The position numbers were made by a program, and so were the translations under genes. Below the pieces are notes generated by a model that was not told where the DNA came from, did not search any database, and saw nothing but the letters and a program-made list of their open reading frames with translations. From assembly GCF_001542905.1 (NCBI RefSeq), contig NZ_LOAJ01000001.1, forward strand, positions 1,674,001 to 1,738,000: a DNA stretch of 64,000 nucleotides, read 5' to 3'. This document shows, in pieces, positions 11,300 to 64,000 of this stretch (positions are counted from its first letter, which is position 1; each line of letters starts with the position of its first letter). Source of the DNA: Halorubrum aethiopicum. Its GTDB lineage: Archaea > Halobacteriota > Halobacteria > Halobacteriales > Haloferacaceae.

Positions 11300-11674
11300 A
11301 TGGACCGCCGCCGGTTCCTCGCCGCGGCCGGCGCGAGCGCCTTCGCCGGCTGTCTCGGCTCGGGCGGGAACGAGCCGGGTCGCCTCGATCTCACGGTCCG
11401 GAACGACGGCGAGGAGGCGGTCGACGTGGAGATCGCCGTACGCGGCGACGACGGGACGACCTACGCGGAGGAGTCCGACCGGATCGACCCCGGCGTCGCC
11501 CGCGCGTTCGAGGCGACGGTCGCGGCGACGGGCCGCCACGAGGTCGCCGCGACGGGCGACGACTGGGAGGGGCGGCTCGCGTGGGACGCCGGGGTCTGTG
11601 CCACCTTCGACGGGACGGTCGTCGTCGACGCCGGGACCGTCGAGGTCGCGGGCGAGTGTCTCGACCTCCGGTAG
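11300..11674 (+). CDS. Small Tat lipoprotein
   Basis: A 124-residue protein, MDRRRFLAAAGASAFAGCLG, with an RRRF twin-arginine motif and the lipobox FAGC. The mature part is acidic and beta-rich (RLDLTVRNDGEEAVDVEIAV...), resembling small immunoglobulin-like extracellular domains. No function is recognised. It sits 31 bases after gyrA on the same strand and may be read through from it, but the ATG at 11300 and the absence of overlap leave this open. Confidence 0.7.
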   Translation: MDRRRFLAAAGASAFAGCLGSGGNEPGRLDLTVRNDGEEAVDVEIAVRGDDGTTYAEESDRIDPGVARAFEATVAATGRHEVAATGDDWEGRLAWDAGVCATFDGTVVVDAGTVEVAGECLDLR

Positions 11675-11790
11675 CCGCGTCGTCCCCGCTCCGCCGGAAG
11701 GACCGCCACGAGCCGGAGCGGACCGCCCCGCCTCCGACGACGAACCTTCAGGAAAGTTACTTACTGTCCCCGCGGGAACGGTCGGTCGAG

Positions 11791-13803
11791 ATGGACGAGT
11801 ACGAGGCGATATCCGAGGTGGTCCACGAGCCCGATCCCGCGTTCGCGGAGTCGACGAACGTCGCCGCGTTCATGCGGGAGTACGGGATGGAGGACTACGA
11901 GGAACTGATCGCGCGTACCACCTCGTCCGTCGACGGGGAGCCCGAGTCGGGCGTCGACTGGTTCTGGGACGAGGTCGTCGACTACCTCGACGTCGATTTC
12001 TACACCGACTACGACGCGGTCCGGAACGACGAGAACGGCCCGCAGTTCACGGAGTGGTACCCGGGCGGCGAGATCAACGTCGCCCACAACGTCGTCGACC
12101 GCCACGCCGCCGTCGACTCGCCGAACCGGAACCGCGTCGCGCTGATCTGGGAGGGCGAGCCGGGCGACGTGCGCGAGGTCACCTTCCACGAGCTCCATCG
12201 AGAGAGCAACCGCGTCGCCAACTACCTCGAGTCGGTCGGGGTGGAGACCGGCGACACGGTCGGGCTGTACATGCCGATGGTCCCGGAGGTCGTCTCGATC
12301 CTCTACGGCTGTCTGAAGGTCGGCGCGATCGCCGTCCCGATCTTCTCGGGGTTCGGTCGGGAGGCGACCGCGACCCGGATCGACGACGCCGAGCCGGCGG
12401 TGCTCTTCACCGGCGACGGCTTCCACCGCCGCGGGAGCGAGGTCCGGCTGAAGGCGACCGCGGACGCGGCGATCGCCGACGCGGGCCACGTCGAGGACGC
12501 GGTCGTCTACGACCGCCTCGGCGCGACCCCCGACGGGGACGCGGACGAACCGGTTCCGTGGAACGCGGAGCGCGACGTCGCGTGGAGCGACGCGATCGAG
12601 CCGCAGTCGCCCGAGTACGAGACGAATCGGCTCCCCTCGAACGCGGAGTCGATGCTCCTCTACTCGTCCGGGACGACCGGGACGCCGAAGGGGATCGTCC
12701 ACACCCACGCCGGCGTCCTCGTTCAGTGCGCCAAGGAGATCCACTTCGGCTTCGATCGGAAGCCGGCGGACCGGTTCTTCTGGGTCGCCGACATCGGCTG
12801 GATGATGGGACCGTGGACGCTGATCGGCAACCACGCCTTCGGCGGGACGGTGTTCATGTACGAGGGCGCGCCCGACCACCCCGAGCCCGACCGGTACTGG
12901 GAGCTGATCGACCGCCACGGGATCACCCAGTTCGGCGTCTCGCCGACGGCGATCCGGGCGCTGCGGAAACACGGGGACGAGTGGGTCGAGGGCCACGACC
13001 TCTCGAGTCTCCGGATCCTGGGCTCCACCGGCGAGCCGTGGGACCCCGAGTCGTGGACGTGGTTCTACGAGGAAGTCGGCGGCGGCGACTGTCCGATCAT
13101 CAACATCTCGGGCGGCACGGAGATCTGCGGCTGTTTCCTGATGCCGATGCCGAACCGACCGCTCAAACCGTGTACCCTCGGCGGTCCCGGACTGGGGATG
13201 GCCATCGACGTCGTCGACGAGACGGGCGAGTCGGTGCTGGAGGACAACGAGCGGGGCTACCTCGTCGCGCGCGACTCGTGTCCCTCGATGACCAAGAGCC
13301 TCTGGTCGGGCGACGAGCGCTACCTCGAGGAGTACTGGTCGACGTGGCCCGACCTGTGGGACCACGGCGACTTCGCCCAGAAGGACGCGGACGGCTTCTG
13401 GTTCCTCCACGGCCGCGCCGACGACGCGCTCAACGTCGCCGGACGGAAGGTCGGTCCGGCCGAGATAGAGGGGGTGTTGATCGACCACGACGCGGTCAAC
13501 CAGGCGGCCGCGGTCGGCGTCCCGGACGAGACGACGGGGACCGCCGTCGTCGCCTACGTCGTCTTGGAGCCCGGCGTCGAGCCGACGGCGGCGCTCCGCG
13601 AGGAGCTGCGGGACCTGGTCGGCGCGGAACACGGCAAGCCGTTCCGGCCGCGCGAGGTGCTCTTCGTCGACGCCTTCCCGAAGACGCAGTCGGGGAAGGT
13701 CATCCGGCGCGCCATCGCCGCCGTCCACCGCGGCGACGACCCCGGCGACCTCTCGTCGATGGAGAACCCCGAGGCGCTCGAAGGGCTTCGAGACGCCGAG
13801 TGA
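11791..13803 (+). CDS. AMP-forming acyl-CoA synthetase (acetate/propionate-CoA ligase-like)
   Basis: A 670-residue protein of the ANL superfamily. The ATP/AMP motif YSSGTTGTPKGIVHTHAG begins near residue 291. The A5 motif NISGGTEICG, the A7 aspartate in DLWDHGDFAQ, the hinge GRADDALNVAGRKVGPAEIE and the catalytic lysine region KTQSGKVIRR near the end are all present. It activates a short or medium carboxylic acid to acyl-adenylate and then acyl-CoA. The acetyl-CoA-synthetase-like N terminus (tryptophan-rich FTEWYPGGEINVAHNVVDRHA) suggests a short-chain substrate; which acid is not decided by sequence. It appears to be monocistronic. Confidence 0.88.
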   Translation: MDEYEAISEVVHEPDPAFAESTNVAAFMREYGMEDYEELIARTTSSVDGEPESGVDWFWDEVVDYLDVDFYTDYDAVRNDENGPQFTEWYPGGEINVAHNVVDRHAAVDSPNRNRVALIWEGEPGDVREVTFHELHRESNRVANYLESVGVETGDTVGLYMPMVPEVVSILYGCLKVGAIAVPIFSGFGREATATRIDDAEPAVLFTGDGFHRRGSEVRLKATADAAIADAGHVEDAVVYDRLGATPDGDADEPVPWNAERDVAWSDAIEPQSPEYETNRLPSNAESMLLYSSGTTGTPKGIVHTHAGVLVQCAKEIHFGFDRKPADRFFWVADIGWMMGPWTLIGNHAFGGTVFMYEGAPDHPEPDRYWELIDRHGITQFGVSPTAIRALRKHGDEWVEGHDLSSLRILGSTGEPWDPESWTWFYEEVGGGDCPIINISGGTEICGCFLMPMPNRPLKPCTLGGPGLGMAIDVVDETGESVLEDNERGYLVARDSCPSMTKSLWSGDERYLEEYWSTWPDLWDHGDFAQKDADGFWFLHGRADDALNVAGRKVGPAEIEGVLIDHDAVNQAAAVGVPDETTGTAVVAYVVLEPGVEPTAALREELRDLVGAEHGKPFRPREVLFVDAFPKTQSGKVIRRAIAAVHRGDDPGDLSSMENPEALEGLRDAE

Positions 13804-13842
13804 GCGCCGGACCGGCCCGGACGCGTTCGCGTTCGAGTTCGA

Positions 13843-14325
13843 TCAGTTCGGCGTGATCGCCCCGGTCGCGGCGTCGGCGACCGCGGCGTAGTCGGGCTCC
13901 TGGCCGTGCCCGTCGGCCAGCCAGCGGTACGTGACGGTTCCCTCGGCGTCGATCACGAACACCGACCGGCGGGCGACGGCGTCGACGCCGTAGCCCTCGA
14001 AGTCCGCGACCGCGTCGTATGCCTCGATCGCGCGGTGATCGGGGTCCGCGACGAGCCCGAAGGGGAGGTCGTACTCCTCGCGGTAGGCGGAGAGCGCGTG
14101 CGGGAGGTCCGTGCTGACGCCGAGGACGGTACACGCCTCCGGGAACCGGTCGAACTCGTCGCGGATCGTCCGCATCTCGTCGGTACAGGTGCTCGAGAAC
14201 GCGGCCGGGAAGAAGGCGAGCACGACCGGGCCGTCGCCGATCCGGTCCGAGAGCCGGAACGGTTCGATGTCGTCGGTCACGAGCGAAGCGGCGAAGTCGG
14301 GCGCGTCGTCGCCTACGTCGACCAT
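13843..14325 (-). CDS. Peroxiredoxin (AhpC/TSA family)
   Basis: A 160-residue thioredoxin-fold protein. The peroxidatic cysteine is Cys47 in FFPAAFSSTCTDE, matching the PxxxTxxC pattern with conserved Pro and Thr/Ser. No second nearby cysteine matches the Bcp CxxxxC pattern; the only other cysteine is Cys65 in FPEACTVLGVS, which might be the resolving residue. It reduces hydroperoxides in the cytoplasm. A GTATATAC TATA box (14348-14356) lies 23-31 bases before the ATG, so the transcript is leaderless. It converges with the acyl-CoA synthetase gene. Confidence 0.9.
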   Translation of the reverse strand: MVDVGDDAPDFAASLVTDDIEPFRLSDRIGDGPVVLAFFPAAFSSTCTDEMRTIRDEFDRFPEACTVLGVSTDLPHALSAYREEYDLPFGLVADPDHRAIEAYDAVADFEGYGVDAVARRSVFVIDAEGTVTYRWLADGHGQEPDYAAVADAATGAITPN

Positions 14326-14443
14326 ACGGACCGATGGTCGCGAGCGCGTATATACCGGACGGTCGACGGCGTCCCGGACCGGTCGTCGGGACCCCCCGAA
14401 GGCAAAAAGACTATAATCGACACAGGGTTACCACCGGGTAGAG

Positions 14444-14758
14444 ATGACAAGCGCGATTCCACTGATCGGCGGCATTCCGGCGGGGCCGGAGCTCCTCATA
14501 ATCCTGCTCGTGTTGGTCCTGTTGTTCGGCGCGAACAAGATCCCGAAGCTCGCACGCTCGACCGGGCAGGCGATGGGCGAGTTCAAGAAGGGCCGCGAGG
14601 AGGTCGAAGAGGAGCTACAGAAGATGCAAGAGGGCGACCTCGACACGGACACGACGACCGAGACGACGGCCGAGCCGCCCACCGAGGCGACGACGGATAC
14701 GACGGCCGACGACGACCTCGAGACCGAAACCGAGACCGAGAAGGAATCGAGCGCGTAA
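14444..14758 (+). CDS. tatA: Sec-independent protein translocase TatA
   Basis: A 104-residue protein with the TatA/B layout: one N-terminal hydrophobic helix (PELLIILLVLVLLFGANKIP), the FGxxKxPxLARSTGQAMGEFKKG hinge and amphipathic helix, and a long acidic, Thr-rich tail. TatA forms the pore of the twin-arginine system, the main export route for haloarchaea, including the lipoproteins of this window. An ACTATAATC box at 14410-14418 precedes it. The DxE and DT-rich tail is a usual halophilic adaptation. Confidence 0.93.
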   Translation: MTSAIPLIGGIPAGPELLIILLVLVLLFGANKIPKLARSTGQAMGEFKKGREEVEEELQKMQEGDLDTDTTTETTAEPPTEATTDTTADDDLETETETEKESSA

Positions 14759-14823
14759 CCGACAGCACGCGTAGCCGACGCCTCCTCCCGCGGTCCCCGT
14801 TCGATCGTCCCCTTTTCCATCTC

Positions 14824-14896
14824 GGGCGCGTGGCCTAGCGGATAGGGCGAGGGGTTCCTAACCCCTCGATCGCGGGTTCGAATCCCGTCGCGCCCG
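14824..14896 (+). tRNA. tRNA-Arg (anticodon CCU)
   Basis: A complete cloverleaf can be folded. The acceptor GGGCGCG pairs with CGCGCCC, and the anticodon stem AGGGG/CCCCT has the loop TTCCTAA, with CCT at positions 34-36. The T arm is GCGGG-TTCGAAT-CCCGT. The CCA end is not encoded. It reads AGG codons. It lies directly downstream of tatA. Confidence 0.93.
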
Positions 14897-14953
14897 TTCC
14901 CTCACTACGTTCGGTCACGGGCGCGACTGACCCACGCTCGCTTCGCTCGCGTG

Positions 14954-14971
14954 GATCCCGTCGCGCCCGTT
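14954..14971 (+). repeat. Duplicated 3' end of tRNA-Arg (possible att remnant)
   Basis: ATCCCGTCGCGCCCGTTC is an 18-base exact copy of the tRNA-Arg 3' end plus three flanking bases (14882-14899), 72 bases downstream. No integrase or other gene lies between the copies. Confidence 0.5.
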
Positions 14972-15062
14972 CGTTCGCTTCGTCCGATCGCGGTGATTCA
15001 TATTCGAACCGGTCAGTACAGGCGAAGGAGCGATCGCCCGAGCGGTGGCGCGAACCCGACCG

Positions 15063-15290
15063 CGAGGCTGGGGAGGTGTGAGGTGCGGTGCTGTGCGGTG
15101 GGGGTGGGACTCAAGGGGGCAGCCGCGAGGGCGAAGCCCGACGACGTAAGCACCGGAGCGAGTGAGCGGAGCGAACGAGCGAGGAGCACAGCGAGTCGTG
15201 CGAGTCCTCGCGGCTGGGGCTTTGGAGATGTTCATCGTCCCAGGAACGATCCCGTTCTCACCACCCCGATCTCTACTGAAACACCCGTGC
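15063..15290 (+). repeat. Dispersed structured intergenic repeat, copy 2
   Basis: It begins with the 27-base sequence shared with 5792-5818 and continues with a GC-rich stretch. An 11-bp perfect inverted repeat (CAGCCGCGAGG at 15120-15130 and CCTCGCGGCTG at 15206-15216) could form a long stem. I recall similar sequences as common intergenic repeats in Halorubrum genomes. The gap 14897-15325 holds nothing else that looks coding. Confidence 0.55.
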
Positions 15291-15325
15291 TATAAGCATT
15301 CGACTTCTACCGTCTCGTCCGCCTC

Positions 15326-16021
15326 TCAGGCCGGATCTTCATCCAGCCGCCGAAACGACCGGCTCGCGAGCCACACCGAGAGTGCGGCGATCCCGAGGGT
15401 GGCGAGCGCCAGGCCGACGCCCGGCTCGTACAGGAGCGGCGGATAGTAGCCGACCCAGTAGTCGACGACGACGTTCGCGACGCCGAGCGCGCCGGCGACC
15501 GCCAGCGCGCCGCGGGTCGTCCGCCCGAACGCCGGGAAAAGCAGCGCGAGGCCGACGAAACACAGGTGGGTCCCCAACACGCCCCAGTAGTAGATCCACG
15601 CGTCGGGGGCGATCACGTACGACTCGAACGCCAGGTTCAGCGAGACCAGCGGCCACAGCCCGAACTGGACGAGCCAGACGAACGAGAGCGTGTGGAGGTA
15701 CGCGAGGGCTCGGTTCGTCGGCGTCTCGGCCACCGGGTCGCCGGAGCCGACGGTCGGCAGCAGCGTCGCGAGCGAGAGCGCGCCGAGCGCGACCGCCACC
15801 GCCGAGTCGGCGTACAGCGGCCACAGGACGGTCGGGACCTCCCCGAGGGTGCCGGCGTAGTAGTCGACGCCGATGAGGAACATGAACGCCGTCAGCGCGA
15901 GGGTGACGACGAGGCTGCGCGGCTCCCCGAGCAGCTCCTCCGCGACCGCGTCGCGCACTCGTCGACGAACCGCCCGATCACGCAGGCGACGGAGACCGTG
16001 CAGCCGACGGAGAGGAGTCAC
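15326..16021 (-). CDS. DUF1405-like (YpjA-type) membrane protein
   Basis: A 231-residue protein. A charged N-terminal stretch of about 35 residues is followed by six hydrophobic segments, with motifs GVDYYAGTLGEVP near residue 52 and DAWIYYWGVLGTHL near residue 140. The size, topology and these motifs fit the DUF1405/YpjA family of uncharacterised membrane proteins. No function is known. The family call is from memory of the pattern and is moderately certain. It is divergent from the pilus operon, with about 110 bases between the starts. Confidence 0.65.
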   Translation of the reverse strand: MTPLRRLHGLRRLRDRAVRRRVRDAVAEELLGEPRSLVVTLALTAFMFLIGVDYYAGTLGEVPTVLWPLYADSAVAVALGALSLATLLPTVGSGDPVAETPTNRALAYLHTLSFVWLVQFGLWPLVSLNLAFESYVIAPDAWIYYWGVLGTHLCFVGLALLFPAFGRTTRGALAVAGALGVANVVVDYWVGYYPPLLYEPGVGLALATLGIAALSVWLASRSFRRLDEDPA

Positions 16022-16132
16022 GTCACCGACTGCGCGGAGGGACGGCTAAAAGTTCACGCTCCCGACACCGGGGTTATCAATCCCGGATATTTGCGAGACA
16101 CCTTTTTCAACGGGAGAGGAGTGGATCACCCT

Positions 16133-19100
16133 ATGGACGGAGGGGACGCGGGGCACGACCCCGTCACCGACGGGAACGGTGACGAGGGGGAGGGGGCGGA
16201 AGCGACGCCCGCGTCCGACGACGGTGCGAACGCGACGAACAGGCCGGATCCGCCCACCTCCGGTGACCCCGTCAGGGTCGGCCGGTACACCTGGCGGGAG
16301 TTCCTCCAGGAACGCGGCGACGACGACGTCGCCGCAACGCTGTACGAGTGGGTCCCGAACGTCCCCACGGTGCCGGCGGGGGCGGTCAAAGGCCGGTTCG
16401 CTACCGCGGACCGCACGGGCGGGACCCTCCGGGCGGTCGGCGTCGTGGAGCCCTTCCTGGCGGACGGCAAGACGGCCGTCGACGGTCACGGAACGCCCGA
16501 GGAGGGGACGCTCGTCGTCGGCGACCGGGACGTCGTCGTCGACGGTCGCGCCGTCTTCGAGGACCGTACCGCCCTCGACGAGGACACTGACCTCGACGAG
16601 GACACCGACCTCGACGACGAGCCTGCCGAACCGGACGGCGCGTCGGAGTCGGTCGTCGTCTCCGGCACGGACGTCGAGCCGGCCCCGGCCGGCCCGCCAA
16701 CGGATCTCGACTGGGACCGCGTCGCGTTCGATCCCGCCGAGCTCCTCGGATTTCACCCGACGGCGGGCGCGGACCGGATCCGGTCGGCCGCCGCGGTCGG
16801 CGAGGTGCTCTGGGACCGGTGTCACGCCCGGTACAACCTCTACGAGGTGCCGGTCCTCAAGGGGTACTACACGTGGGACGACTACGCCGACGAGTACTTC
16901 TACGACGAGGAGGGGAACCCGCCGACCGACGAGGAGGGGGAGCCGCTCGCGTTCACCCACGCGGACAAGGTCGACGCGCTGGGATTCGACCCGGACCGGA
17001 TCGGCGAGGCGCTCTCGGCCGGCGGAGAGGCGGCCGCGGAGCTCGCCGACCTCGTCGACGAGCGGACCGTCGACGTGGATCCCGACCTCGACGAGGACGC
17101 GTTCTTCTCGACGGCCGACGGGGCGACGACCTTCGTGAACCGGTACGACCTCGAGAAGGCGGTGCCGATGCCGAAGAAGACGCACTTCCGCGAGGAGGAG
17201 CGCTACTGGGTGAACGAGCCGTACGCGTTCGTGATCGTCTTCCGCTCGACGAAGGAGAACGAGCGGAAGTACTACGCGGTCCAGCCGTACCTGACGCGGA
17301 TCGAGACGGACCTGATCGAGTTCCTCACGGGGAAGCTCCGGACGTCGATCAAGTACGCCGACGAGTCGATCGCGGGCGGCGACGAGGCGTTTCGGGAGGG
17401 CGTCATCGCCGAGGAGACGCGAACGCTACTCGACCGATACGGCCTCTACGAGGAGTCGTCCGGGACGAACGAGTTCGTGAGCGACCTCCTCGGCCGGCTC
17501 GATCGGATCGACCTCGGACGGTTCGGCATCGATCCGACCGCGGGGGTTCCGGGCCGGCTCGCCGAGGCGCTCGGGTATCAGCCGACCGACGGGGGAAGCG
17601 ACGGTGACGCCGAGGACGCCCCCGTCCGGATCAGCGCCCGCCCGGAGCCGGCGGTGCTCGAGGAGGACGCGCGGACCCTCTCGGCGTACCAGGTCGAGAA
17701 ACTGCTGTACTACCTCAAACGCGACTTCATCGGATACGAGCGGATCGACCCCATCAAACACGACATCAACGTCGAGGACATCTCCTGTGACGGGTACGAC
17801 TCGCCGGTCTTCGTCTACCACGCCGACTACGAGCAGGTCATCACCAACGTCTACCACGGCACCGACGAGCTCGACGACTTCGTCGTGAAGCTCGCCCAGC
17901 GGTCCGGTAAGGGGATCTCGAAGCGCCGACCGCAGGTGGACGCGACCCTCCCCGACGGCTCGCGGGCGCAGCTCACGCTCGGCAGGGAGGTCTCCGACCA
18001 CGGGACCAACTACACGATCCGGCAGTTCAACGACGTCCCCTTCACGCCGATCGACCTGATCAACTGGCGGACGTTCTCGCTCGACCAGATGGCGTTCCTC
18101 TGGCTGTGTATCGAGAACAACAAGAACCTGATCTTCGCGGGCGGGACCGCCTCCGGGAAGACGACGAGCCTGAACGCCGTCTCGCTTTTCATCCCCTCGA
18201 ACGCGAAGATCGTCTCGATCGAGGACACCCGCGAGGTCGAGCTCCCGCAGCGCAACTGGATCGCCTCCGTCACGCGCCCCTCCTTCTCGGACGACGACAA
18301 GGGCGACGTCGACGAGTTCGACTTGCTCGAGGCCGCGCTCCGGCAGCGTCCCGACTACATCGTGATGGGCGAGATCCGCGGCGAGGAGGGCCGGACCGCC
18401 TTCCAGGTGATGTCGACTGGCCACACCACCTACACGACGTTCCACGCCGACTCCGTCGGTGAGGTGCTCAAGCGGTTCACCACCGACCCGATCAACGTCT
18501 CGAAGACGATGTTCACCGCCCTCGATCTGGTGTCGATCCAGACGTCGACGCGGGTCCAGGGGCGGAAGGTGCGCCGGAACAAGTCGCTCACCGAGATCAA
18601 CCACTACGACGCCGAGAACGACGAGATCAACGTCCAGGACGTCTTCCAGTGGCAGGCCGAGACGGACGAGTTCCTCCGGATGGGCGACTCGAACGTCCTC
18701 GAGGAGATCATGTTCGACCGGGGGTGGAGCCGGGCCACCCTCGACGAGGAGCTCCGCAAGCGTCGGATCGTCTTGGCCTACCTCATCGACCGCGGGCTCA
18801 ACAGCTACGCGCAGGTGGCCGCGACGTTCCAGGCGTTCATCAACGACCCCGAGACGGTCCTCGCGCTGATGGCCAACGACGAGCTGGAGCGTTCCCTGGA
18901 GGACCTCCGGGAGATGGAGTCGGTCCTGATCGACGTCGACCGGGACAAGGAGGAGATGGTGCCGCGGCCCGACCCCGACGAGGACGGGCGCGAGGAGGCG
19001 GCGGCGATCCTCGCGGACGCCGAGGACGTGTTCGAGACCTACCGCGGGTCGATCCCCGACTCGGTCGCCGACGCGCTGCTCGCGGTCGATCCCGCCCGGA

Positions 19101-45306: not shown

Positions 45307-45882
45307 ATGGAGATCACAGACATTCCCGATGACGCATATGGTACTCAAGAGTCAGCACCTGATCTCGACGAGTTAGAATCGGCTGAGTCGCTGCTCAAAG
45401 GCGGACCGATCCGAAAACGACTCCTCGATGTTGTCGTCGCGCTTCGTACGCCGACGAAGGTCTCGACAATCGCCAAGCGTGCCGATTGCGACACCGAAAC
45501 AGCACGAGATTATCTAGAGTGGTTCGACGAGATGGGGATGGTTCACCGCCACGACGGCCGTCCAGTTCGCTACGAGCGCAACGATGCGTACTTCCAGTGG
45601 CGACGTATCGACCGGCTCCGCGAGGAATACTCCGAACAGGAGATCGTCGACGCACTCGGCGACGTGCTCGAACAGATCGAAGACTACAGGACACGGTTCG
45701 ATGCCGAACATCCGGACGAAGTCTCGCTCGTCGAAACCACACGGGATCAGGATCTGTCCACAGAAGCGGCCTGGGAAGCGCTCTCCGAGTGGGAGACACT
45801 CAAACAGCGAGCAGCACTCCTTGACGCAGCACGCCGAAACAATCCAGTCACCGGTAGCAAGCCCGGTCCAGTCGATGCCTGA
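45307..45882 (+). CDS. Winged-helix regulator (DUF7342-like), candidate antitoxin
   Basis: A 191-residue protein. The central part (residues 35-95: RKRLLDVVVALRTPTKVSTIAKRADCDTETARDYLEWFDEMGMV) is a winged helix with a clear recognition helix. It continues with RPVRYERNDAYFQWRRIDRLREEYS and a helical tail. This matches the haloarchaeal DUF7342-like HTH family. Its stop overlaps the next gene by eight bases. The pairing with a TumE-like gene suggests an antitoxin or autoregulator; that role is inferred. Confidence 0.65.
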   Translation: MEITDIPDDAYGTQESAPDLDELESAESLLKGGPIRKRLLDVVVALRTPTKVSTIAKRADCDTETARDYLEWFDEMGMVHRHDGRPVRYERNDAYFQWRRIDRLREEYSEQEIVDALGDVLEQIEDYRTRFDAEHPDEVSLVETTRDQDLSTEAAWEALSEWETLKQRAALLDAARRNNPVTGSKPGPVDA

Positions 45883-46312
45883 GGACACGTCGGACCCACC
45901 CAGTCGCGGTCCCATCGATACGGAAATCCTCAACCGGATTGCTGCACACCTCGCCCGTAGTGATCGATTCGGTGACATCCAGACACGACTGGAATACGCA
46001 CCAAACGCAGTCGTCGCTGACTACGATCTCGGATACTTTCCAGGCGGCGTCACCCGTGCATATCTACGGATCCGCTGGTTCGAGACCGACGACTTCAGCA
46101 TCCACTATTCGGAGCAATACCAGACCGGCAACGAGTGGGAGTGCCGATGGGACCGGCACCCGAATGACCATAACACCCGCAAGCACTTCCACCCACCTCC
46201 AGATGCGCCGACTCCCGGAGAGGATGCCAACTATCCTGACGACTGGCGGGACGTACTCGCAGCTGTTCTCACTCGGCTCGACAACCGGATCAAAGCCTTC
46301 TGGGATGAGTAA
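45875..46312 (+). CDS. TumE/DUF6516-like protein, candidate toxin
   Basis: A 145-residue protein with the pattern seen in TumE (DUF6516) proteins: a beta strand rich in aromatic residues (FSIHYSEQYQ) followed by RWDRHPNDHNTRKHFHPPPD, resembling the YDNHxxKxHxH segment, and a final helix (DVLAAVLTRLDNRIKAF). TumE is the toxin component of some toxin-antitoxin pairs with an HTH partner. Overlap with the HTH gene supports such a pair. The assignment rests on pattern recognition only. Confidence 0.5.
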   Translation: MPEDTSDPPSRGPIDTEILNRIAAHLARSDRFGDIQTRLEYAPNAVVADYDLGYFPGGVTRAYLRIRWFETDDFSIHYSEQYQTGNEWECRWDRHPNDHNTRKHFHPPPDAPTPGEDANYPDDWRDVLAAVLTRLDNRIKAFWDE

Positions 46313-46344: not shown

Positions 46345-46557
46345 AGAACGGATCGAGTACGAGAGCTGGAAAGGGCCGATGGCAGATTCACAGTCGGGCA
46401 ACCAGACTCACAGCACGCCTATACCATACTGGCCCAGTACTACCAGGATCCTGATGGGGGATCACTAACTGAACCACGCATCAACGACGCAGTGATCATT
46501 ACGCTTGAGCAGTCCTCCCACCTGTGTCTGATCTCACCTCCGCGGCCAGTCATTTGA
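46345..46557 (+). pseudogene. C-terminal gene remnant without start
   Basis: The frame reads RADGRFTVGQPDSQHAYTIL, then AQYYQDPDGG and INDAVIITLEQSSHLCLISPP, ending at TGA 46555-46557. It has protein-like composition but no start codon in a sensible place and no recognised domain. It is probably the tail of a deleted gene. The rest of the gap 46313-46676 has no feature. Confidence 0.4.
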
Positions 46558-46676
46558 CACACCACAGCCACCTTAGAATGATGGCGCAATCAATCGGTTT
46601 GTCCCCCGATAGTCGTAATTCGGCGTAGCAACTTTGCAAGCGTATAAGTCAGTCACCCAACCACGCGAAGTTGATT

Positions 46677-49736: not shown

Positions 49737-49779
49737 CCTCCCTACTTCGCTCACCCTGACGGGTTCGCTCGTTGAGGGA
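49737..49779 (-). mobile_element. Right-end hairpin region of the IS1341-type element (possible reRNA 3' part)
   Basis: CTCCCT (49737-49742) and AGGGAG (49774-49779) form a stem that overlaps the last codons of tnpB. Subterminal hairpins and a guide (re)RNA overlapping the 3' end of tnpB are typical of IS200/IS605-group elements. The exact element ends cannot be fixed from this sequence; a similar GC-rich run lies on the other side at about 51067-51115. Confidence 0.45.
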
Positions 49780-51007
49780 GGGGCTTGTCCGTGAGCTCAG
49801 CCTCAAACCCGTCCGGGTGGGCGGAGAATCCGCCACTTGGCGTCACCGTTCCAGACTTTAGGGCGAGTTGACTGTCGCCCGTCCGCCGAGACGACTGTTG
49901 GCCTCGACGGACATACCGCATCCCGATGTTCTTCGCCGCATTGTAGTCCGCGTTCGCTTCCGATTCGCACTTCACGCACCGGAAGTCCGTGCGAGTTCGG
50001 CGATTCTCGTCTGCCGTGAATCCACACTCGGCGCACCGTTGCGACGTGTACGCCGACCCCACTTGCTTCACTGAGATGCCGACTGCTTCGGCTTTGTACG
50101 CCACTTGCTCGTACAGGGTTCGGAACGCCCACTTGTGCCCCCACGACGCACCCGTTCGGTCGCGGATGTCGGTCAAGTCCTCGAACGCGATCACGTCGCA
50201 CTCGTATCGAAGTGCTTCATCCACAATCGCGTTCGACGCTTGGTGAACCACATCACGAACGTATCGTCGTTCGCGTCCACTTGATTGTTCGAGCGTTCTG
50301 TGGGCGCTTCGCGTGCCTGTCTGTTGGAGTTTCGCACGGACTTTCTCGAACTCGCGGAGGTTGTGTGAGAGTTCGCGCCCATTGATGAATCGTGCTGTGC
50401 TGGTGACGGCGAGGTTTTCGCTACCGAGGTCGACCCCGAGAACCGTTCCGTCCTCGGCGGTGTCTTGCTCAGTGTCGGTCTTGGGTCGGCGGAAGCCGAT
50501 GTGTAAAAAGTAGTCGCCGTCACGAGCGGTGAGCGTGCTTTCCGTGACGCTCCAGTGGTCGGAGTCGAGGTACTGCCGTTGGTAGCCATCCTCGGCTTCA
50601 GGGAGAGCAAGTTCACATCGGACGCGACTCTCCGTCGTGGAGAGTGACACTGTATCGTCATCGAACAGCGTCATCGTTCGAGTGTCGTACGTTACCGTGG
50701 GTGCGGTGAACGTGGGTTTACTGACCTGCTTGCCGTTCGAGCGGCGTTCGAGACAGCCGGTGATGGCTTGTGCGGCGTGGTGGGTGGCGAGGATCGCGTG
50801 CTGACTCCCGAGGTCGGTTTCCTCGCGCACGTCGTCGTAGGCGAGGGGTTGTACGTCGCTCTTGGCGTTACACTTCCCCCACGCCATGTCCGTGGCGAGT
50901 TGGCACCCACGCTTCCACTCGGAGATGGTTTCCTCAAGCAACTCGCGTTGCTCATCGTCTACCGAGAGACGAGTGATTGCCGTCCGACGCACGTGGTCGT
51001 CTGCCAC
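49751..51007 (-). CDS. tnpB: TnpB, RNA-guided nuclease of IS1341 (IS200/IS605 group)
   Basis: A 418-residue intact TnpB. The RuvC triad is complete: Asp193 in GVDLGSENLAV, Glu276 in IAFEDL and Asp354 in NADYNAAKN. The zinc ribbon has Cys325, Cys328, Cys344 and Cys347. The N-terminal OTF-type region (RRTAITRLSVDDEQRELLEE) is also intact. TnpB nucleases cut target DNA guided by a reRNA from the element end and favour element retention. No tnpA is adjacent, so it is an IS1341-type element moved in trans or not at all. The start is GTG. Confidence 0.92.
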   Translation of the reverse strand: MADDHVRRTAITRLSVDDEQRELLEETISEWKRGCQLATDMAWGKCNAKSDVQPLAYDDVREETDLGSQHAILATHHAAQAITGCLERRSNGKQVSKPTFTAPTVTYDTRTMTLFDDDTVSLSTTESRVRCELALPEAEDGYQRQYLDSDHWSVTESTLTARDGDYFLHIGFRRPKTDTEQDTAEDGTVLGVDLGSENLAVTSTARFINGRELSHNLREFEKVRAKLQQTGTRSAHRTLEQSSGRERRYVRDVVHQASNAIVDEALRYECDVIAFEDLTDIRDRTGASWGHKWAFRTLYEQVAYKAEAVGISVKQVGSAYTSQRCAECGFTADENRRTRTDFRCVKCESEANADYNAAKNIGMRYVRRGQQSSRRTGDSQLALKSGTVTPSGGFSAHPDGFEAELTDKPLPQRANPSG

Positions 51008-60008: not shown

Positions 60009-61046
60009 CTACGTAATCCGCTGCAACGCCGTAATCGCCGTCTCCAACTGCTCTCGCAGCTCCGGATCACCCTCATCCACCGTCACCTCACTGTCCTCAA
60101 CAGGGCTCTGCTGTGCAGACTCCCCGGAAACTACGGGGCCAGTCTGACAATCATCCGCAGTCTCGTCACCAACAGCATCCAGTTGCTGTTGGCCATCGGC
60201 ACCAGCACCACTCGGATCAGACTCACTCTCGCCCGCCGCAGGACCCGCCGGGTGCTGCCCACCGTCCCCGCTGCGTCGGAACGCATCGAGGGGGAAATCG
60301 TACGCCATCGCGCGTTTTTCCTTGTGGAACGTGGTCCGACGAGAGACATCGAGCACGTCCATAATCTCCTGCCGGTCACACCCGCGTTCTAATGCCTGCC
60401 TGACTTGCTCGTCTTCAACACGCTGAATCAACGCTTGTGGATCAGACGGGATATGCCCACGCGCTGACTGCTCAACCTGCTCGGTCAAGCCCCATTCACC
60501 GGTGTCAGCGTCCTGATCGACGATCTGCTGGTCCCGAGAGTCGACCATATTGTCAAGCCCCATCAGCAACGCCAGCCGCTCCCGAACCGTGGTGACGGAC
60601 AACTCAGCCGTCAACCCGTTCGAGATCTCACCGGTCCGCGCCGGCCCCTCATCGGCCAAGTACCGCAGGATCTCGATGTCCTGCGGGAGCAGCACACTCT
60701 CATCTTCCTCAGTGATATCCACTGGCAACTCATCCGGCGTACTCTGCTGGTGGAACCAACTATGGCACGACCGACACAGCAACGTTAAATTCTCCAGGTC
60801 GTGCTCGTCTATCCCGTCGGGGTCCCGCTCGATGTGATGGACGTGCAGCGTCGCCAGCCCGCCTTGTTCAGGCCCGCGTCGCCCGCACGCCTGGCACCGA
60901 TGCTGGTACTCCGTCAGGACCTCGTCGCGCGTCGCCGGGTCAACCGTCTCGTGACACTCACGAGGGCTCGTCGTCCCGGCGTCCTTGCCGTCTGTAGTTG
61001 GACTGCTTGATTCATCCGCTCGGGGTCGTGTATCAGCTTCTGCCAT
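60009..61046 (-). CDS. HNH endonuclease domain protein
   Basis: A 345-residue protein. After a short disordered start, the HNH core has EYQHRCQACGRR, then LHVHHIERDPDGIDEHDLENLTLLCRSCHSWFH, including both zinc cysteine pairs and the HH catalytic motif. A winged helix follows (ILRYLADEGPARTGEISNGL), and a long acidic Gly/Ser-rich tail ends it. It is the most downstream gene of the minus-strand cluster with the exonuclease and the RAMP-like protein, and may be the effector nuclease of that system, though such HNH genes also occur alone. Confidence 0.75.
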   Translation of the reverse strand: MAEADTRPRADESSSPTTDGKDAGTTSPRECHETVDPATRDEVLTEYQHRCQACGRRGPEQGGLATLHVHHIERDPDGIDEHDLENLTLLCRSCHSWFHQQSTPDELPVDITEEDESVLLPQDIEILRYLADEGPARTGEISNGLTAELSVTTVRERLALLMGLDNMVDSRDQQIVDQDADTGEWGLTEQVEQSARGHIPSDPQALIQRVEDEQVRQALERGCDRQEIMDVLDVSRRTTFHKEKRAMAYDFPLDAFRRSGDGGQHPAGPAAGESESDPSGAGADGQQQLDAVGDETADDCQTGPVVSGESAQQSPVEDSEVTVDEGDPELREQLETAITALQRIT

Positions 61047-61242: not shown

Positions 61243-61902
61243 TCAACTCGACCTCGTTGGCGTCAACGATTTCACGTTGAACTCTGCCTTGCTACAGTAC
61301 CGTTCAGCAATCCGGCCGAGCGCCCGCGTCCGCAACACATCCGCCACGTTATGCAGCACGAGCTCCACGAACCGCCCGTCTTCGAAGGCGGTCACCGCCG
61401 CGGCACTGTCCTCGAATGGATCAAGGTCACTATGCGACCCGTCGCCGAGCAGCCTGTACACAGCCGCCAACCCGCGCTGTTCCTCACCGTCAACCATCGT
61501 GTTGAACCGATCCGAAATCACCGGCAACACGTCCGCATACGCCACATCGAACGGCCACGCCATCCTATGCGCCGCGTACCGACTCCGCAGGAACGGCAGA
61601 TCGAACCCGCCACTCCACACCTCACCGTTAAACGCAACGAGCAACGACTCCGCGTCCTGTATCCGGTCACCGATGAACGCCGCGACAGCCGCCAACAGCG
61701 CGGACTCATCAGGGTGTGTCGACACATTCACAAGTGTGTCCGACAGCCGCGCCGACACGCTGGCCTCGACATCGCCGGCGGCCCGCCCAGCGGTCTGGAC
61801 GAACACCCGGACACCCATCGGCATCGCAAACCCGACGACCGTCACCTCATCACTGATGTCAAATCCAGTCGTCTCAATATCGAACGCCACCTGCTCAAGC
61901 AT
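61243..61902 (-). CDS. DEDD-type 3'-5' exonuclease-like protein
   Basis: A 219-residue RNase H-fold protein. FDIETTGF near residue 8 gives the first Asp and Glu of the exonuclease triad; GGFDLPFLRSRY near residue 99 gives the second Asp; and ELVLHNVADVLRTRAL near residue 190 supplies His and the last Asp. It resembles DnaQ/PolB-type exonuclease domains. The ATG at 61902 shares one base with the stop of the RAMP-like gene; a GTG at 61905 would give a GTGA overlap. The two genes are therefore coupled and probably act together. Confidence 0.78.
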   Translation of the reverse strand: MLEQVAFDIETTGFDISDEVTVVGFAMPMGVRVFVQTAGRAAGDVEASVSARLSDTLVNVSTHPDESALLAAVAAFIGDRIQDAESLLVAFNGEVWSGGFDLPFLRSRYAAHRMAWPFDVAYADVLPVISDRFNTMVDGEEQRGLAAVYRLLGDGSHSDLDPFEDSAAAVTAFEDGRFVELVLHNVADVLRTRALGRIAERYCSKAEFNVKSLTPTRSS

Positions 61903-62846
61903 CACACCACCCCCTCACGCTCCGGCACGCGATCACGACCCGCCGGCCGCACCCGCAGCTCGCCGAACCCGAATCGTGCGTGTGTTCCGATTCGCAACAC
62001 GCCGTTTTTCGCCGTCTGTATCGGGTCGTTTCCGGCGTAGCCGACAAGTTGCCCGTGATCGATCGTCGCCAAGTCGTACACCGACTCCCCAGCGAGTCGC
62101 TCCTCGCGGCGACGCAACCGCCGGTCTCGCGTCGGCGCATCACTTCCCATGCCCGTAACCGACGTATCCCACCACCACGGCACCGACTGGGTGTCCGCGT
62201 CCGGGGCCTCACTCTGCAAGACGTACGGCGTCACCAGCTCGATGGAGTACTGGTCGTGCCCCCGCAGCCCATCGAACGACAGCGCGTCGAGATCGACGAC
62301 CTGTGAGTCGACAAGCGATATCTCCCCGAACCCGTAGTTCCGCGCGCCGCCCACCCGGATCCCATCAAGCACGCTCTCATCAAGCGGGAGCACGCCCTCG
62401 CGCTCACTGTGAAGATACGCGTGAACGTACCATGTCACGCGGCGCTTCGAATTCCGCTGGTGTGCCGGCACCCCGAAGAACGACTCCGGCGCGACCGCGA
62501 GCCGCCCGCCGTGCGACTGGACATCCATCGTATTCTGCGCCTCACGCGGCCGGGACGCCTGCAACCATCGCTGCGCCGCATCCCGAAACACGAACAGATC
62601 AGCGTACGACTCGACCGGCGGGAGCGACCCGCCGAGCTTCCCCGCATACCCATCCTGTGAATGCTCATCCGGGTACGACCCGTACTCAGACGGCGTGAAC
62701 ACCCCGTGGCTCACCTGTAACTCGCGTCGCGCCCGGTCGTCGACGTCCGCCGCGATCGCTTGAAACAACGCGTGACCCGACACGTGATACGGCCGCCCCG
62801 CGTACGGCGCTGTCAACTCGAACACGACCTGCTGGATCCGCGTCAT
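61902..62846 (-). CDS. RAMP-superfamily-like protein with two glycine-rich loops (HRAMP candidate)
   Basis: A 314-residue protein. Residues 163-176 read IRVGGARNYGFGEI, and residues 285-296 read RIGTHARFGFGE. Both match the glycine-rich G-x-G-x2-x2-GFG loop of RAMP proteins (Cas5/Cas6/Cas7 families), once in each half. The N terminus begins with a beta strand (MTRIQQVVFEL) and HVSGHALFQAIAAD, in line with a ferredoxin-like fold. It is coupled to the DEDD exonuclease. I believe it is the diverged Cas5- or Cas7-like component of a haloarchaeal HRAMP locus; profile comparison is needed to say which. Confidence 0.65.
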   Translation of the reverse strand: MTRIQQVVFELTAPYAGRPYHVSGHALFQAIAADVDDRARRELQVSHGVFTPSEYGSYPDEHSQDGYAGKLGGSLPPVESYADLFVFRDAAQRWLQASRPREAQNTMDVQSHGGRLAVAPESFFGVPAHQRNSKRRVTWYVHAYLHSEREGVLPLDESVLDGIRVGGARNYGFGEISLVDSQVVDLDALSFDGLRGHDQYSIELVTPYVLQSEAPDADTQSVPWWWDTSVTGMGSDAPTRDRRLRRREERLAGESVYDLATIDHGQLVGYAGNDPIQTAKNGVLRIGTHARFGFGELRVRPAGRDRVPEREGVV

Positions 62847-63312
62847 ACCACACCACACCCCCTTCGGTTCACATCGAGATCATAACACACCGACCCATCC
62901 CGGGTAACTGCATCACCACAGCGAGCCCCCACTCGACTCAACCACCACTCACCACCAGCAGGAGACACAGCCCCACCAAGCACCCGCAACGCACGGCGAA
63001 CCGCTGGTGAGGCGTGTACTACCGGGCGGTCCAACGACCCTCGACCCTGGAGAGCCGGGAACACAACCGGACACGCAGTCCGGCCTGCCGACTCACCGCA
63101 CGACCATACTGCCCGACCCGCACACCACCACACCCCGCCTGTGCAGCTCGACGCGATCGACGATCCCGCGCCCGGGAGTGGGCGGTCCGGGACGCATCGA
63201 CCCTGGAGAGCCGGGAACGCGACCGGACACGCAGTCCGACCCGCCGACTCACCGCACGACCATATCGCATAACCGGAGTCAGCAGCCCGGCCGTCACGAC
63301 CGTGACGACGGG
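62847..63312. other. Non-coding stretch in the RAMP locus
   Basis: About 465 GC-rich bases between the RAMP-like gene and the gene cut by the window edge. No gene is supported on either strand; its one structure is the pair of long direct repeats described separately. Confidence 0.5.
63024..63264 (-). repeat. 85-bp imperfect direct repeat pair with internal hairpin (possible RNA component)
   Basis: Copies at 63024-63108 and 63180-63264 have a period of 156 bases. The last 68 bases of each (63041-63108 and 63197-63264) differ at only four positions; the first nine (GGGCGGTCC) are identical. Each contains a stem, CCGGAC-ACGCA-GTCCGG in copy 1 and one pair shorter in copy 2. The 71-base segment between the copies is unrelated. 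Both lie between genes of the minus-strand locus. Confidence 0.55.
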
Positions 63313-64000
63313 TCACGCATCCACCCCCACCGTGCCGCGCATCTCACCCGCGACAGCATCCTCAATGTACTGTAGCGCCGTCGACCACGACCGGATGCGA
63401 CGGAGCTGTGCGTCGACGTGTCGCCACCATACCGTGTCACGGTCCACCGGCGACCCAGACACGCGACTCCACACATCCGCAAACGACTCAGCCGGCGCCG
63501 GACCAAGCCACGCCGCCGACCCGTCCGGTGACGCCGTCAACCGCATCGTCACCCCATCCAACCACAGGATCGTTCGATGCGGCACCACCACGTCCACGTC
63601 GAGCGCCGCCTGCTGTCTCACCACTCGATCCGCATCTCCTGGCGGTGCGTCCGCTGCTGGTTCAACAACCAAGAACAGGTCATCAAACACGTGGCCCGCC
63701 CGGTACGCATCAAGCAACGCCGACACCAACAACACGTGATACTTCAACGACGAATACGGCAGAAACACCGACTCATTCACCAGCGACGCAGTCTCACTCG
63801 TCAACCACGCCGCGTGCAACTCTTCCGGCGACCCATCAACCAGCGGCGTGATCGAAGTATCCTGTACGGGGACCACCCCCGTTTCGAGTACCGAGCCCGT
63901 GAGCAGCGACAGCCGCGCTGGCGACGCGTGATTCGCCACCGTCTGCTCGGGTTCGCCGTCCGGCCGGCTCAACAACGCCGCATCCCGATCCGCTCCCAGC
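63313..64000 (-). CDS. Unrecognised protein of the RAMP-like locus (5' end beyond window)
   Basis: At least 228 residues. The frame stays open to the window edge, so the start is outside. Visible segments include SLLTGSVLETGVVPVQDTSI, YSSLKYHVLLVSALLDAYRAG, VFDDLFLVVEPAADAP and LRRIRSWSTALQYIEDAV. I recognise no catalytic motif. It is upstream of the RAMP-like and exonuclease genes on the same strand and is probably a further component of that system. Confidence 0.55.
   Translation of the reverse strand, partial: LGADRDAALLSRPDGEPEQTVANHASPARLSLLTGSVLETGVVPVQDTSITPLVDGSPEELHAAWLTSETASLVNESVFLPYSSLKYHVLLVSALLDAYRAGHVFDDLFLVVEPAADAPPGDADRVVRQQAALDVDVVVPHRTILWLDGVTMRLTASPDGSAAWLGPAPAESFADVWSRVSGSPVDRDTVWWRHVDAQLRRIRSWSTALQYIEDAVAGEMRGTVGVDA

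Follow-up and report, generated by a model that had tools for sequence, protein, structure and literature searches.

A conserved repeat pair within the HRAMP operon of Halorubrum aethiopicum, tentatively read as a duplicated operator-like element

The window studied here is a stretch of 64,000 nucleotides of Halorubrum aethiopicum. We found that a pair of direct repeats in it, lying between genes C and D of an HRAMP locus, is kept at the same place in related loci. The first-pass annotation had noted that this pair looks like a minimal repeat-spacer-repeat arrangement. Our results indicated that the array reading is wrong and that the finding itself is conserved; a regulatory element is the best supported explanation, held tentatively, and an RNA element comes next as a clearly less probable one.

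HRAMP is a haloarchaeal RAMP derivative of class 1 CRISPR-Cas that contains Cas5 and Cas7 and has no array (PMC12669027; also PMC8730458), and reviews present it as an array-less CRISPR derivative without a known mechanism (PMC12669027, PMC8730458). The gene order in the window is A, B, C, the gap, D, E and F, all on the minus strand. The features that concern us are the following.

63313 to 64000, minus strand: HRAMP gene C, 297 amino acids, extending beyond the window end to about 64206.
62843 to 63316, minus strand: X, a 157-codon open frame filling the C-D gap; its GTG start overlaps the C stop and its TGA stop overlaps the D start.
63180 to 63264, minus strand: repeat copy nearer gene C, with half-site 1 at 63246-63264 and half-site 2 (GGTCGGACTGCGTGTCC) at about 63225-63241.
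63109 to 63179, minus strand: intervening sequence of 71 nt, in frame; together with one repeat it forms a 156-nt (52-codon) unit.
63024 to 63108, minus strand: repeat copy nearer gene D, with half-site 1 (TATGGTCGTGCGGTGAGTC) at 63090-63108 and half-site 2 (GGCCGGACTGCGTGTCC) at about 63069-63085.
61902 to 62846, minus strand: HRAMP gene D, a RAMP protein resembling Cas6 and Csm4-Cmr3 (Cas5-like).
61243 to 61905, minus strand: gene E, an RNase H/DEDD-type exonuclease.
60009 to 61046, minus strand: gene F, an HNH endonuclease with an HTH-like region.
46382 to 46425, minus strand: a third, intergenic copy of the element, found by a sequence-model search, 16.6 kb from the pair.

In addition, a TnpB-like protein of an IS200/IS605-type element, named by its sequence appearance, is encoded at 49751-51007 on the minus strand.

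The locus had been described as RAMP-like, and we identified it as HRAMP. Profile searches gave a weak RAMP-superfamily match for B and a weak Cmr3 match for D. Because solved structures searched with sequence profiles of B and D yielded no useful match, their predicted models were compared by fold. The B model matched Cas7 subunits of type VII, III, IV and I complexes with E-values down to about 1e-5. The D model, of lower confidence (pLDDT 66), matched Cas6 and, more weakly, III-D and Csm4 chains, and was closer to Cas6 than to Cas5. Thus, the fold of B is Cas7-like and that of D is Cas6/Cas5-like, and the DEDD exonuclease and HNH genes follow. The locus therefore has both the diverged Cas7 and Cas5 homologues and the associated nucleases (F, HNH; E, RNase H/DEDD) by which HRAMP is recognised, and it resembles HRAMP as described (PMC12669027, PMC8730458) in its Cas7-like and Cas5/6-like RAMP genes, its HNH and other nucleases and its occurrence in Halobacteria.

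Self-comparison of the window placed two direct copies of 85 nt at 63024-63108 and 63180-63264, with 87% identity and a period of 156. The inner 68 nt differ by four mismatches (self-match E-value 5e-25), and the similarity is far above chance expectation. Realignment thus agrees with the earlier report of two near-identical copies. The 301-bp repeat region is single-copy in the window's assembly (G000, 3.33 Mb). Each copy consists of two half-sites about 20 bp apart, and the hairpin noted earlier falls on half-site 2. That hairpin, CCGGAC-ACGCA-GTCCGG, had been assigned to both copies. The first copy does carry the perfect 6-bp stem, but the second reads CCGGAC-ACGCA-GTCCGA and has only 5 bp, because its right arm ends in GTCCGA.

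Conservation was examined by BLASTN over 171 genomes of the family and later by a protein search for HRAMP gene D. Eight loci (that of the window and seven related ones) carry one to three copies in the same C-D interval: one in G066, two each in G000, G109 and G111, and three each in G110, G147, G155 and G119. The search in other HRAMP loci that the annotation had proposed was therefore positive. Furthermore, the core is conserved across paralogous repeat units while the flanks diverge. Within the window's lineage the copies are spaced by multiples of 3. The frame-shifted G147 is the exception; in its locus (L035), HRAMP genes C and E as well as X contain frameshifts, which are probably assembly errors. 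Three of the weak BLAST matches from the family-wide search (L009, L014 and L016) are intergenic copies of the element.

The annotation had named a plain segmental duplication as the dull alternative. A neutral duplication without function would fit the G066 locus, which is 97% and 94% identical on the two sides and yet lacks exactly one 156-nt unit. Its single copy resembles one of the G000 copies in its left part and the second in its right part, the pattern expected after recombination between the two repeats. However, the repeat is kept at the same position in all eight loci and therefore is not a bare local duplication, and its core is conserved outside HRAMP too. Thus, neutral duplication is disfavoured, and we regard it as quite unlikely.

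The array reading rested on a true likeness, that is, direct repeats with intervening DNA adjoining Cas7/Cas5-like genes. However, the repeat is 85 nt long, imperfect and degenerate, and the copy spacings vary among loci (153, 156, 162 and 195). The intervening sequences, supposed to be spacers, are homologous between species and partly also between units, with no sign of spacer turnover or targets. The best match of the intervening sequences in the phage collection was at E 0.2, to mycobacteriophages; there was no match in the plasmid collection, and the core of the element had no pattern match among viral contigs. In addition, the 71 intervening bases of the pair lie in the same open frame as their surroundings and have no foreign look. 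We also found no CRISPR array in the examined HRAMP C-D intervals, which hold other repeat elements. We thus rejected the CRISPR array; a minimal array with an acquired spacer is highly improbable, and this reading is in practice refuted.

The gap had also been called non-coding. This does not hold for the frame, since X is open on the minus strand across the whole gap, but it holds in that the frame evolves unlike a protein. In G000, the start codon of X overlaps the C stop in GTGA, and its stop codon overlaps the D start in ATGA. Among the 34 HRAMP loci with a C-D interval longer than 100 nt, 27 have a frame without stops across the interval, which begins no more than 8 nt from the C stop and ends at the D start; the chance of an open frame per locus, estimated by shuffling, was 0 to 0.28. 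The seven exceptions are L121 (partial), L035 (G147), L084 and L085 (uncertain D starts), L117, L118 and L120. In the C-D interval of L116, at about 130-370 of the gap, we observed an in-frame AT-rich insertion that contains repeats and palindromes of its own (GATTGTAACAATC), and the frame there is stop-free over 200 codons.

A small protein gene was considered for the coupled frame and the multiple-of-3 spacings. In that case, a small repeat protein, which in the window's lineage would show a W-S-x-x-E-S-x-x-R motif, would be translated from the gap between C and D. However, the GC content of X by codon position (about 0.70/0.70/0.60) is unlike that of its neighbours (about 0.7/0.45/0.7-0.8). 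Substitutions by codon position, summed over six separate pairs, were 113:117:103 in X, 188:131:372 in C and 147:90:458 in D. Thus, codon-level purifying selection is absent from X, while in these pairs the substitutions in C and D are biased towards the third position. In addition, the short repeats of other loci are read in differing frames. Both composition and substitutions therefore speak against the protein gene, and we consider it improbable. Because the substitutions are flat, X is probably translated but encodes no conserved protein, and in our view the C-D interval is translated, or its frame is at least preserved to couple C to D, with a peptide that is probably little constrained. 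The B-C interval is a contrasting case: it is an acidic N-terminal extension of C with LDEL-type motifs and an ordinary coding pattern. This extension and its motifs were seen in L078, L080, L081, L087, L096, L105, L112 and others, and the motifs are probably short protein-binding motifs.

A profile of the repeat units gave weak intergenic matches outside HRAMP. When at most one mismatch was allowed, the core TATGGTCGTGCNGTGAGTC matched 48 times, in 36 of the 394 Halobacteria genomes searched, and the reversed control five times. When the core copies were aligned, a second half-site (GTCGTGCTGTGAGTC-like) appeared 20 bp on, at the position of the earlier-noted hairpin in the HRAMP copies. This spacing is equal in HRAMP and non-HRAMP copies, and half-site 2 is degenerate in the HRAMP copies. 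The single copies are intergenic and mostly same-oriented. Of those inspected, 17 lay 74-250 bp upstream of a same-oriented gene; in most of them, a BRE/TATA-like sequence (e.g. CTCAGGGCTAACCCTTTAATAC) stands some 45-55 bp past half-site 2. The single copies thus have the geometry of an operator or upstream promoter element, namely, a conserved site at a fixed distance before several core promoters. The flanking genes encode N6/Eco57I, HmaB/PglX-like and DUF1156-like methylases, a PDC-S11 protein and an integrase, and several belong to no family. Between the element and the TATA-like box, about 50-75 bp past the element, we observed an inverted repeat (TTCTAACG...CGTTAGAA) in L250, L254, L257, L267 and L269, which looks like a second operator.

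The element and HRAMP tend to occur together. With the eight window-type genomes left out, HRAMP gene D was present in 25 of 30 element-bearing genomes and in 80 of the 356 others (Fisher p = 3e-11, genomes being counted as independent, with no phylogenetic correction). Furthermore, 23 of 27 element matches on a D-bearing contig lie within 60 kb of D. The third copy in the window lies between a gene ending at 46312 and a gene starting at 46671, and there is no obvious gene directly downstream. A sequence model of the element found no copy in eight HRAMP-less Halorubrum genomes, and in G110, G147, G155, G109 and G119 it found none besides the HRAMP copies; since those are their only ones, these five of the eight genomes show no sign of a wider regulon. 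We also noted a gene for an HTH-like protein at 45307-45882 on the plus strand of the window, with relatives near the element at 2367-2960 of L246 and 2371-2964 of L016; these proteins are possible candidates for a regulator.

Archaeal upstream activating and operator sequences can be built of tandem half-sites. The element is similar to them in its fixed orientation, in the distance of about two helical turns between half-sites and, in the single copies, in its place about 50 bp before BRE/TATA. However, the HRAMP copies differ from such operators in being multi-copy and in lying within an operon and an open frame, without a TATA box. That the core is found in front of promoters outside HRAMP too suggests a control site bound by a protein, and the half-site geometry together with the promoter context favours a protein-binding DNA element.

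Our leading reading, which we put forward with some reserve, is that the pair may be a duplicated operator-like element inside the HRAMP operon that tunes D, E and F. The pair would be a tandem duplication of a cis-regulatory element of about 45 bp, with two half-sites 20 bp (about two helix turns) apart, most likely recognised by a haloarchaeal DNA-binding regulator. Single copies in other genomes stand some 50 bp before the core promoters of other operons, and these operons, several of which include methylase genes, share their islands with HRAMP. The window's lineage, which comprises Halorubrum and a relative, has one to three copies within the HRAMP operon itself, about 200-550 bp before D. 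The regulator, acting at the DNA, would tune D (Cas5/6-like), E (exonuclease) and F (HNH nuclease) separately from A-B-C. The interval is also kept free of stops in one frame that links the end of C with the beginning of D, so that ribosomes could continue from the former into the latter. The operator reading has its weak points: half-site 2 is degenerate in HRAMP, the regulator is missing, and no TATA-like sequence follows the window's two copies (only a BRE-like CTCCAGGGTCGAGGG follows one). The copies within HRAMP in general are not followed by a TATA box, and so no promoter is shown for them. The five genomes with no visible wider regulon and the lack of an obvious gene directly after the window's third copy also count against this reading.

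The main competitor is an RNA element. The repeats would serve as a scaffold, a guide or an autoregulatory site, either within the mRNA or in a processed RNA to which the Cas7-like B and the Cas5/6-like D bind. The interval is indeed flanked by RNA-binding RAMP genes. The covariation check proposed for the stem gave a mixed answer: there is one compensatory pair but little covariation otherwise. In the alignment, 87.5% of the cells of the noted stem are paired, with one double-change pair, and its covariation score was reached by 8 of 500 shuffles. The RNAalifold consensus prefers another, weak fold. Single-sequence folds of the repeats are unremarkable (z -1.4 and 0.2 on the gene strand), and the arms around the conserved core (G000-type) pair slightly better than shuffled ones (Z -2.2). 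A scan of all stems in the six-locus alignment gave 39 stems against 15-27 in column-permuted controls, and strongly covarying stems were not in excess. The noted hairpin, with one compensated pair only, was disfavoured as a conserved RNA stem; no support was found for alternative stems of the core, and a search of Rfam with the repeat gave no family match. Taken together, the structural support for the window's repeat as RNA is weak.

Other HRAMP lineages carry two further kinds of element in the same interval, as follows.

C-D intervals of L077-L080, L082-L085, L093, L101, L102, L105, L108, L111-L116 and L119, gene strand: 22-nt repeat GRCACTGGAAACGGGGTGTGTG.
C-D intervals of L077, L078, L081, L083, L096, L104, L105, L111 and L112: hairpins with a constant loop CGUGGUGG and non-homologous complementary stems.

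A profile of the 22-nt repeat matched 60 times in 22 loci, each time within the C-D interval and on the gene strand; outside that interval, about 580 kb held none on the same strand and two weak matches on the reverse strand. The exact pattern matched 51 times in 394 genomes, 48 times just upstream of D and three times beside HRAMP remnants or a split locus, and its reversed control had zero matches. Among 85,000 genomes, the contigs with at least two matches were all haloarchaeal HRAMP loci, and single matches elsewhere were at chance level; viral contigs gave only five single, chance-like matches. For example, Halorubrum californiense (L105/L218) has five copies with a period of 45-48 nt, and in many loci a degenerate copy precedes the D start. 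Some copies include a crRNA-handle-like TTGAAAC, and a handle-like TGGAAAC was also seen. For the CGUGGUGG hairpins, the stem score was 5.8 in C-D intervals versus 2.8 ± 0.2 in shuffled sequences and 2.7 elsewhere, and the arm duplex energy was -21.6 versus -15.4 ± 0.5 when shuffled (Z -12.3, versus -0.1 elsewhere). These are convincing RNA (or single-strand) hairpins under selection.

By analogy, such RNA-like hairpins with varying complementary arms, in the same interval of other HRAMP lineages, would favour an RNA role and count against the operator, as does a strand-specific repeat almost confined to HRAMP loci. On the RNA reading, the 22-nt repeat and the CGUGGUGG hairpins would have an equivalent role in those lineages. 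However, the homologues of the window's repeat lie upstream of promoters and hence are not transcribed from them. With this, the weak structure and the lack of an Rfam family, we consider the RNA element unlikely for the window's pair, though the strongest of the competing explanations.

A broader possibility, in our opinion doubtful, is that the C-D interval would be the RNA source of "array-less" HRAMP. It would be an open-frame, non-array RNA locus whose lineage-specific repeats (the 22-nt repeat, the CGUGGUGG hairpins and the two-half-site element) are bound by the Cas7/Cas5-like proteins. In the window's lineage, this RNA would have sequence in common with the elements upstream of promoters in nearby defence operons, to which it could guide the complex in the way that creA guides Cascade. 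RNAs of the creA and scaRNA type are regulatory RNAs that resemble CRISPR (PMC8730458), and the present case is like them in having a sequence beside cas-like genes that matches promoter regions. It differs in that there is no sign of a separate transcript and that the HRAMP copies match the window's single copy no better than the family consensus.

Upstream of HRAMP in L032, Tgt/DpdA-like genes (11383-13404 and 15029-16270) flank an ATPase-like gene (13478-15028), all on the minus strand and named by sequence appearance; these are possibly a DNA-modification cluster. HRAMP loci without a C-D interval, including those of a compact second HRAMP type, have none of the interval elements, so none of these is indispensable. 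Nevertheless, about half of the HRAMP loci examined have conserved repeat elements between C and D, and the "array-less" HRAMP therefore does carry conserved repeats. In this respect our results differ from HRAMP as described, and the literature searched made no mention of conserved repeats in its open, peptide-unconstrained interval. The element common to HRAMP and the neighbouring methylase operons suggests that they may be controlled together. Furthermore, with conserved repeats at one place, in an open but protein-unconstrained frame, the question of the HRAMP mechanism becomes directly testable.
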